This document shows, in pieces, positions 39,150 to 53,526 of a stretch of 64,000 nt of DNA. Each line of letters starts with the position of its first letter. Position 1 is the stretch's first letter. This DNA comes from Candidatus Nanopelagicales bacterium (lineage in GTDB: Bacteria; Actinomycetota; Actinomycetes; S36-B12): contig JAURFD010000001.1 in the NCBI GenBank assembly GCA_030827125.1, positions 124,001 to 188,000 of the forward strand, given 5' to 3'. The notes below the pieces were generated by a model that saw only the letters and a program-made list of their open reading frames with translations, ran no database searches and was not told where the DNA came from. The position numbers were made by a program, and so were the translations under genes.

Positions 39150-39155
39150 TAGCCT
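39150..39155 (+). promoter_or_regulatory. -10 box TAGCCT of the ilvB leader transcript
   Basis: TAGCCT ends 7 nt before the leader-peptide ATG at 39163, giving a leaderless start for the attenuator transcript. Confidence 0.65.
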
Positions 39156-39162
39156 TATCCCC

Positions 39163-39201
39163 ATGCAGCAGATTCTCGTAGTAGGCAGGCGCGCGGGCTA
39201 A
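39163..39201 (+). CDS. ilvB leader peptide (MQQILVVGRRAG)
   Basis: A 12-codon frame, too short for ordinary gene finding, reads Met-Gln-Gln-Ile-Leu-Val-Val-Gly-Arg-Arg-Ala-Gly-stop. Four consecutive codons are for the three branched-chain amino acids made by the downstream operon, the hallmark of an attenuation leader. It starts 7 nt after a -10 box and its terminal codons form one arm of a downstream hairpin. Scarce charged Ile, Leu or Val tRNA would stall the ribosome at 39172-39183. Confidence 0.85.
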   Translation: MQQILVVGRRAG

Positions 39202-39264
39202 CCCCGGCATCTGTCGCTACGGCGACCCGCGCGCACCCTCCGAGCCTTCAGGGCCGGGGGGTTT
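39189..39264 (+). terminator. Transcription attenuator of ilvBN
   Basis: Segment 39189-39197 (GCGCGCGGG) pairs perfectly with 39226-39234. Next to it ACCCTCCG (39235-39242) pairs with CGGGGGGT (39255-39262), with an inner GCC/GGC, followed by TTT: a terminator stem. CCCCGGC at 39202-39208, just after the leader stop codon, can instead pair with GCCGGGG at 39253-39259 and destroy the terminator. A ribosome finishing the leader would cover that segment and allow termination; one stalled at Ile-Leu-Val-Val would leave it free. The mechanism is inferred from the pairing. Confidence 0.7.
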
Positions 39265-39325
39265 CGTGTTGAAGGGGCCCATACGAGACCATGGTCCCCG
39301 CGAATGAAGTGGAGTGAGGCAGCAG

Positions 39326-46741: not shown

Positions 46742-48583
<1,842 letters not shown>

Positions 48584-48599
<16 letters not shown>

Positions 48600-48628
48600 C
48601 GACCAAGGAGGAGTCGCTGCGTGGACAT
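48584..48628 (-). CDS. leuA leader peptide (MSTQRLLLGRRDEA)
   Basis: A 14-codon frame contains three consecutive Leu codons (CTC CTC CTT) followed by Gly-Arg-Arg. It begins 8 nt after a TACCCT box and ends 87 nt before leuA. Content, position and overlap with a hairpin arm make it an attenuation leader sensing leucyl-tRNA. The Gly-Arg-Arg after the sensing codons is shared with the ilvB leader. Confidence 0.8.
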
Positions 48629-51738: not shown

Positions 51739-51817
51739 GCGTCCCGTGCGCGAGGCGCCCCCGGTGTGTCGCCGAGGGTTCCCCGAGGATCCCTTCAAAG
51801 ACCAAGCCCAGAAGGGG

Positions 51818-51823
51818 TATGCT
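51818..51823 (+). promoter_or_regulatory. -10 box TATGCT of the cimA leader transcript
   Basis: TATGCT ends 6 nt before the leader-peptide GTG 51830. Confidence 0.6.
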
Positions 51824-51829
51824 CTTCCC

Positions 51830-51859
51830 GTGCTTCACGCCAGCATCATCATTACCTAG
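51830..51859 (+). CDS. cimA leader peptide (MLHASIIIT)
   Basis: Nine codons: Met(GTG)-Leu-His-Ala-Ser-Ile-Ile-Ile-Thr-stop. Three consecutive Ile codons (ATC ATC ATT) precede a citramalate synthase, the entry enzyme of the pyruvate route to isoleucine, so this is an isoleucyl-tRNA-sensing attenuation leader. It is leaderless and directly followed by two hairpins. Confidence 0.8.
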   Translation: MLHASIIIT

Positions 51860-51919
51860 CGCATCGGCGCCGCGACGCGGCATCGATGCGCAGCCCTTCG
51901 CACCCGCGGGGGGCTTTTT
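51859..51919 (+). terminator. Transcription attenuator of cimA
   Basis: Immediately after the leader stop, GCGCATCG (51859-51866) pairs with CGATGCGC (51884-51891). Next, AGCCC (51892-51896) pairs with GGGCT (51911-51915) followed by TTTTT, an intrinsic terminator. A ribosome at the stop codon would cover the first arm; stalling at the Ile codons changes the folding. The stem-loop order parallels the ilvB attenuator. Confidence 0.65.
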
Positions 51920-51936
51920 GCTTGAGGAGGACCGAC

Positions 51937-53526
51937 ATGGCCACGCTGCCTCTCGGCGATGACTTCCACGTCTACGACACGACCCTGCGCGACGGCGCGC
52001 AGCGTGAGGGAATCGCCTACTCGGTCGCTGACAAGCTGGCGGTGGCCCGCCTACTCGACGACTACGGGGTCGGCTTCATCGAGGGTGGTTGGCCTGGCGC
52101 CCTGCCGAAGGACACTGAGTTTTTCGCGCGGGCTCGCGAGGAGATCGACTTCAAGACCGCCCAACTCGTCGCCTTCGGTGCGACCCGCAAGGCGGGGGTC
52201 ACGGTGCAGGACGATCCGCAGGTCAAGGCCCTGCTCGACTCCCAGGCTCCTGTCGTCACCCTGGTGGCCAAGTCCGACGTCCGCCATGTCGCCGAAGCGC
52301 TGCGCACGACCAACGAAGAGAACCTCGCGATGATCGCCGACACGGTGCGCTTCTTGCGCGAGCACGACCGCCGCGTCTTCGTCGACATGGAGCACTTCTT
52401 CGACGGTTATAAGCACGATCGTGACTACGGCGTGCGCATCCTCGAGGTGGCCTTCGAGGCTGGCGCCTCGGTCGGCGTCATGTGCGACACCAACGGGGGC
52501 ATGCTCCCGCAGGGCATGTATGCCGTGGTGCAGGACGTCCTCGCGCGCTCCGGCGTGCGCCTCGGCATTCACTGCCAGGACGACACCGGCTGCGCCATCG
52601 CCAACACGATCTCGGCGGTCGAGGCAGGCGTCACCCATGTGCAGTGCACGGCCAACGGCTACGGCGAACGCACCGGCAACGCCGACCTCTTCCCGGTCGT
52701 GGCCAACCTCGAGACCAAGCTCGATCTTCGCGTGCTCCCCGAGGGCAAACTCCGCGAGACGATGCGCATCTCGCACGCCATCGCCGAGATCGCGAATATC
52801 GCTCCGGACACCCACCAGCCCTACGCCGGCGTGTCCTCCTTCGCCCACAAGGCGGGCCTGCACGCGAGCGCGCTCAAGGTCAACGCCGAGCTCTACAACC
52901 ACATCGATCCGGCGCTGGTCGGCAATGACCAGCGCATCCTCATCACCGAGATGGCGGGGCGCGCCTCGGTGGAGCTGAAGTCGCGAGAACTCGGCCTCGA
53001 TATCGCTGATGACCCCTCGACACTCTCCAAGGTCGTCGAACGGGTGAAGGAGATGGAGGCACGCGGCTGGACCTTCGAAGCTGCCGATGCCTCGTTCGAA
53101 TTGCTCGTGCTCGATGCCGGCGACCAGGGTCGGCCACAACCGTTCACCGTGGAATCGTGGCGCACCATCGTCGAGCAGCAGACCGACGGCCGCGTGCTCA
53201 GCGAGGCAACCGTGAAGGTTCATGCCGGTGGACGACGAGCGATCGCCACCGCTGAAGGCAACGGCCCCGTCAACGCACTCGACCGGGCGATGCGCGAGGC
53301 GCTCGTCGAACTCTTCCCGGCACTGCAGTCCGTGCACCTCACCGACTACAAGGTGCGCATCCTCGAGGGCGTTGCTGGCACCGACGCAGTGACACGAGTC
53401 CTCATCGGCAGCAGCGACGGTCGCAAGAACTGGACCACCGTCGGGGTCCACGAGAACGTCATCGCCGCGTCCTGGACCGCGCTCGAGGACGCTCTGGCCT
53501 ACGGACTCCTGCGCTCGGCCGACTGA
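51937..53526 (+). CDS. cimA: (R)-citramalate synthase
   Basis: 529 aa, CimA/TIGR00977 subgroup of the HMGL family. HVYDTTLRDGAQREGIAYSV (metal Asp), FIEGGWPGALPKDTEFF, which distinguishes it from LeuA, GIHCQDDTGCAIANT with the metal His, and a C-terminal LeuA-dimer domain. It condenses acetyl-CoA and pyruvate to citramalate, bypassing threonine for 2-ketobutyrate; the later steps use LeuCD and LeuB, all encoded nearby. ATG 51937 has GAGGAGG upstream. Regulation by an Ile-rich leader supports the isoleucine role. Confidence 0.92.
   Translation: MATLPLGDDFHVYDTTLRDGAQREGIAYSVADKLAVARLLDDYGVGFIEGGWPGALPKDTEFFARAREEIDFKTAQLVAFGATRKAGVTVQDDPQVKALLDSQAPVVTLVAKSDVRHVAEALRTTNEENLAMIADTVRFLREHDRRVFVDMEHFFDGYKHDRDYGVRILEVAFEAGASVGVMCDTNGGMLPQGMYAVVQDVLARSGVRLGIHCQDDTGCAIANTISAVEAGVTHVQCTANGYGERTGNADLFPVVANLETKLDLRVLPEGKLRETMRISHAIAEIANIAPDTHQPYAGVSSFAHKAGLHASALKVNAELYNHIDPALVGNDQRILITEMAGRASVELKSRELGLDIADDPSTLSKVVERVKEMEARGWTFEAADASFELLVLDAGDQGRPQPFTVESWRTIVEQQTDGRVLSEATVKVHAGGRRAIATAEGNGPVNALDRAMREALVELFPALQSVHLTDYKVRILEGVAGTDAVTRVLIGSSDGRKNWTTVGVHENVIAASWTALEDALAYGLLRSAD

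Follow-up and report, generated by a model that had tools for sequence, protein, structure and literature searches.

The citramalate synthase gene cimA is very likely preceded by an isoleucine-controlled switch, both in the DNA analyzed here (a stretch of 64,000 nucleotides, referred to as the window) and in the majority of its relatives throughout the Actinomycetes. Based on the features identified in the window (Table 1) and on comparisons of upstream regions, we are confident that the cimA leader acts as a ribosome-mediated transcription attenuator responding to charged tRNA-Ile. The original prediction knew of no described attenuator for cimA, and none was found in open full texts on citramalate combined with leader peptide and attenuation; hence, a class-wide Ile attenuator on cimA is provisionally regarded as previously unreported.

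Table 1. Positions of the cimA leader, cimA, and the related ilvB cassette in the window (R1 is the covariance model described in the text)
Feature	Position	Strand	Details
-10 box TATGCT	51818-51823	+	6 nt 5' of leader GTG; transcript presumed leaderless
Leader ORF (V-L-H-A-S-I-I-I-T)	51830-51859	+	GTG-CTT-CAC-GCC-AGC-ATC-ATC-ATT-ACC-TAG
Sensor codons	51845-51853	+	ATC ATC ATT, three tandem Ile
Hairpin H1	51859-51891	+	RNA fold; 5' arm begins 5 nt past last Ile codon
Intrinsic terminator T	51892-51919	+	10-bp stem (51892-51915), ACCC loop, TTTTT tail; abuts H1
Candidate weak antiterminator	51887-51902	+	UGCG (51887-51890) with CGCA (51899-51902)
cimA ribosome binding site	51924-51930	+	GAGGAGG
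cimA, citramalate synthase	51937-53526	+	ATG 51937; TIGR00977, 612.7 bits (curated cutoff, 450)
ilvB sister cassette	39163-39267	+	Leader MQQILVVGRRAG (39163-39201), H1 and T; R1 match at 39184-39267, E 3.6e-6

The original prediction had placed a TATGCT box 6 nt ahead of a GTG-to-TAG leader within positions 51818 to 51936, and these positions were found to be correct when re-read in the sequence; the leader runs from GTG 51830 to TAG 51859, and the spacer between the box and the GTG is CTTCCC (positions 51824 to 51829). We infer a leaderless start for the cimA leader transcript: transcription would begin at or beside the leader GTG, so that the leader would probably be translated from a leaderless 5' end. 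The extended -10 motif TGn is absent from the window copy of this promoter. Of 64 short ORFs located behind a -10-like box on either strand of the window, only the cimA leader contained Ile-Ile. The two hairpins predicted 3' of the leader ORF, the second with TTTTT, were recovered by RNA folding and a terminator scan. The fold of positions 51830 to 51925 had a minimum free energy of -47.5 kcal/mol (z = -3.84 relative to shuffles), and the scan identified T with 10 pairs, seven of them G-C, compared with 0.1 expected.

To establish how widely the leader occurs, cimA upstream regions (n = 233) were taken from named genomes and from actinomycete genomes across the class and searched for a short ORF 5 to 8 nt behind [TC]ANNNT. 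Ile-Ile was present in these ORFs in 153 of the 233 regions (dinucleotide shuffles, 0.65 on average; reverse strand, 1), and Ile-Ile-Ile was present in 63 (0 expected in shuffles), although these counts are not independent because several regions come from close relatives. Leu-Leu (8 versus 2.65 expected) and Val-Val (6 versus 2.1) showed small excesses only. Ile is thus favored over Leu and Val in front of citramalate synthase, in line with the fit between codons and pathway that had originally been proposed. Beyond the Ile run, which is kept as III, II, VII, or IVI in relatives, the leader peptides are diverse (VLHASIIIT, VQQFIVIIS, VTSTIIIT, MSRTGSIIIA, VSTQVIIT, and VLSFAMIIGSRRAGPQ). Across 141 distinct leaders, Ile accounts for 368 of 1,347 codons (27%), with no use of ATA. 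In all 141, [TC]ANNNT is found 6 to 8 nt before the leader start; an extended -10 TGn is present in 130, and no TTGAC -35 was found at 12 to 23 nt. Conservation of the leader frame had been set as a check of the prediction, and the frame, the codons, the promoter distance, and both hairpins are kept across the class Actinomycetes. Among 70 regions upstream of cimA in other classes of the phylum, almost none had a comparable Ile leader. Four of these regions (L269, L270, L297, and L300) carry longer Ile-rich leaders with IIII or III before cimA, such as GAIVRAIAIIIIRSLP; these have no covariance model match and are possibly of independent origin.

Two hairpins and a T tract were identified in 178 of 180 leaders. 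H1 starts 5 nt past the last Ile codon in 94 of the 178, and within 4 to 8 nt in 171. The stop codon is located 5' of the H1 arm in some lineages (NNN-TAG-CGCG), and in others the leader itself encodes the arm (IIGRRAG-TGA). As the distance from Ile to H1 is kept while the stop codon moves, stalling at Ile, not termination, seems to set the geometry. The spacer between H1 and T is 0 nt in 143 of 158 leaders. Both hairpins showed strong covariation: with anchoring at the stem bases, canonical pairs made up 95.6% of H1 and 99.6% of T, compared with 65.6% and 80.2%, respectively, when 3' arms were re-dealt among loci, the unshuffled figures being favored by construction as the arms were taken from folds. 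Using RNAalifold, double changes were found in 9 of 16 pairs.

A covariance model of H1 and T, designated R1 and trained on cimA leaders only, matched 166 of 194 class genomes and, in a direct check of 98 regions upstream of cimA (a few of which had served for training), 68; the 70 regions taken from elsewhere in the phylum gave no match. In the genome to which the window belongs, R1 hits beyond the window score only 16 to 17 bits and look like chance. Copies matching R1 were identified before ilvB, with the leaders VRFGILVLH, VRIPRLVVG, VHSRFIVVIRRAS, and MRTRILVLGKRVG, the last of which (L360) is identical to the IlvL peptide of S. lividans (PMC8079986). Further copies were found before a LeuA-like gene encoding an HMGL-like domain (MKHLLLIESARH) and before leuS (L362 and L364 to L366), including VTAYRLLLPEPR and MRTTQLLLIEPR. 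In one family (f23; L369 to L373), the R1 cassette precedes the gene for an IlvA-like threonine dehydratase and its leader peptides end in MVIT, MAIT, or MGIT, and most cimA genes are without the leader; here, regulation seems to have shifted to the other entry point of isoleucine biosynthesis. Sensor codons of the leaders found with R1 suit the product of each gene. Since a model built from cimA leaders retrieves those of ilvB, leuS, LeuA-like, and IlvA-like genes, the cimA leader, judged by these sequence and structure matches, is an actinobacterial branched-chain attenuator cassette of the ilvB/leuS type with Ile codons. This kinship with known ilvB and leuS leaders was missed by the original prediction. 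Cassettes with the Ile leaders PRIII and MFALVIIM were also observed (L343 and L375) before a small ORF of approximately 100 amino acids, which has no Pfam or NCBIfam match and by eye resembles an IlvM-type ACT protein.

For the proposed switch, we infer the following direction of regulation. When charged tRNA-Ile is ample, the ribosome would pass the Ile codons and depart at the stop codon; with the ribosome gone, H1 and the abutting T would fold, and transcription would terminate upstream of cimA. When charged tRNA-Ile is scarce, the ribosome would stall on the Ile codons, its front reaching the base of H1. The stalled ribosome would disturb H1, the freed GCG 3' strand may interfere with nucleation of T, and RNA polymerase would read through into cimA, whose product opens the pyruvate route to isoleucine.

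A classical strong antiterminator was unsupported in 158 distinct leaders, as an intermediate formed by the H1 3' arm and the T 5' arm was no stabler than shuffles (mean z = +0.44) and the H1 and T strands of the same leader paired no better than crossed pairs. The trp, his, and ilv attenuators of E. coli have sensor codons, a stalled ribosome, and a terminator in common with the cimA leader; however, their leaders are not leaderless, and they possess a strong overlapping antiterminator, which was not found for cimA. The candidate antiterminator in cimA leaders is a complement of 3 to 4 bp and is energetically weak, with GCG in the H1 3' arm of 155 of the 158 leaders and CGC, CGU, or UGC in the T 5' arm of 157. 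In modeling of ribosome footprints, this pairing delayed T nucleation only with a ribosome covering the last Ile codon, where the length of T 3' arm needed for nucleation increased on average from 3.3 to about 5 nt, an effect that is modest and model-dependent. GCG in the H1 3' arm is a weakly supported candidate for the antiterminator. The effect on nucleation recalls the switch at a 3-nt boundary that has been put forward for C. glutamicum ilvBNC, whose terminator and antiterminator have only the trinucleotide GCC in common. Tentatively, and with a good deal less than even confidence, a single Actinomycetes cassette may be envisaged (extended -10, leaderless leader, H1, and abutting T, with codons swapped per gene) that operates with no overlapping antiterminator of the classical kind: the ribosome would open the H1 stem at its base, and a strand of 3 to 4 nt would thereby delay T nucleation.

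A different use of the same Ile leader, which we consider doubtful, would have H1 beside a ribosome on the Ile codons as the structure that allows read-through, with H1 masked and termination permitted once the ribosome is at the stop codon. In the scheme published for M. tuberculosis ilvB1, about 26 nt are masked by a ribosome at the stop, which blocks the antiterminator, and a ribosome stalled at the first Ile codon of the cimA leader would leave H1 free; however, H1 and T abut without overlap, so that both can form together and nothing in H1 excludes T. It is very improbable that T is a constitutive partial terminator tuning the level of cimA, with a leader ORF that is due to chance or decaying and no Ile sensing. 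Taken by itself, T makes a good intrinsic terminator (mean energy, -17.8 kcal/mol), and a strong antiterminator was not found, but the Ile runs (153 of 233 versus 0.65 expected), the small excess of Leu and Val, and the fixed Ile-to-H1 spacing argue against this explanation. There is hardly any likelihood of a T-box or other aptamer sensing Ile-tRNA or a metabolite directly: T-boxes before ileS in some Actinobacteria are reported (PMC1262725), but with the covariance models of Rfam 15 the only matches in the window were two tRNAs, no match at E 0.1 was obtained in 14 relatives, and the leader is short, with the codons and two hairpins as its conserved parts. Scarcely credible also is an N-terminal extension of CimA, which the open frame from GTG (51766 to 53526) would allow, because leader-to-cimA distances (-107 and -94) differ by amounts that are not multiples of 3 and so break the frame, a ribosome binding site precedes 51937, and the supposed coding sequence would contain a covarying terminator. 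No stop interrupts the cimA frame as far upstream as GTG 51766 (51766 to 51936, forward strand), and automatic annotation may therefore yield a CimA that is wrongly extended and conceals the leader.

In Actinobacteria, Seliverstov et al. in 2005 described attenuation of trp, ilvB, and leuS and, for leuA, a LEU element (PMC1262725); cimA is absent from the abstract and opening part of that account. Likewise, a reannotation of S. lividans lists eight leaders, none of them for cimA (PMC8079986). The ilvB (ilvBNC/ilvBHC) attenuators of Streptomyces, Corynebacterium, and Mycobacterium similarly consist of a short leader with branched-chain codons, a hairpin, and a terminator with a U tract, and the Streptomyces ilvB type is leaderless, like the cimA leader, and is matched by R1. 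However, ilvB leaders carry mixes of Leu, Val, and Ile codons before acetolactate synthase, whereas the cimA leader is Ile specific. The leuS and leuA leaders of Streptomyces (LeuL2 and LeuL1, respectively) are also leaderless with a run of sensor codons near the stop, R1 matching the leuS type, but differ in having Leu codons. In most Actinobacteria, leuA leaders are described as having a LEU element or as lacking a typical terminator. The ilvB-II motif and three-hairpin attenuator of Corynebacterium resemble the cimA leader in having a uORF rich in branched-chain codons followed by P1 and then the terminator P2; they are described for ilvB only, and the peptide is longer, at about 15 to 17 amino acids. 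Changing the LVVI sensor codons of the M. tuberculosis ilvB1 leader to AAAA abolished induction (PMC13236596). For S. coelicolor, codon mutations in the ilvB leader are reported to have no effect on regulation (as cited in PMC1262725). As codon dependence was shown in one system and reported absent in the other, cimA would also bear on the conflict.

If the proposed switch is correct, Ile-tRNA directly controls entry into the citramalate route throughout most of a major bacterial class, Streptomyces-like genomes included. Notable features of the switch would be how widely it occurs, its specificity for Ile, and its membership in a cassette family with matched codons, of which the sister cassettes with Leu or Leu/Val codons would form a natural codon-swap series for studying the actinobacterial attenuator mechanism. 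In practical terms, removal of the cimA terminator would be an obvious modification of actinomycetes meant to produce isoleucine.

The annotation as CimA over LeuA, which the original prediction took the leader to support, was borne out by the TIGR00977 score (Table 1), and the LeuA models score far below their own cutoffs on the window protein; the Ile-favoring leader agrees with this assignment. The preference for Ile over Leu and Val in cimA leaders, together with Leu before leuS and Leu, Val, and Ile before ilvB, provides independent support for CimA over LeuA, and the Ile codons would therefore serve as evidence of function in an enzyme family easily confused with LeuA. The nearest named relatives of the genome are 'Candidatus Nanopelagicales' metagenome-assembled genomes. 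A search of the genome with PF00585 gave no match, but an IlvA of the TIGR01127 type is present with 425 bits, above the cutoff, and citramalate as the sole route to Ile in this genome was thus ruled out. In the window, cimA is situated downstream of leuB and ilvE, with a separate leuA gene on the minus strand (positions 46742 to 48544). Within this single stretch, Ile-Leu-Val-Val precedes ilvB, Leu-Leu-Leu precedes leuA, and Ile-Ile-Ile precedes cimA. The promoter of the ilvB leader reads TAGCCT-N7-ATG (region 39150 to 39267, forward strand). The leuA leader, MSTQRLLLGRRDEA, is found at 48628 behind TACCCT-N8 (48642 to 48584, minus strand); over the next 100 nt or so no T5 tract follows, and the start of leuA itself is likely ATG 48496 rather than GTG 48544 (minus strand).
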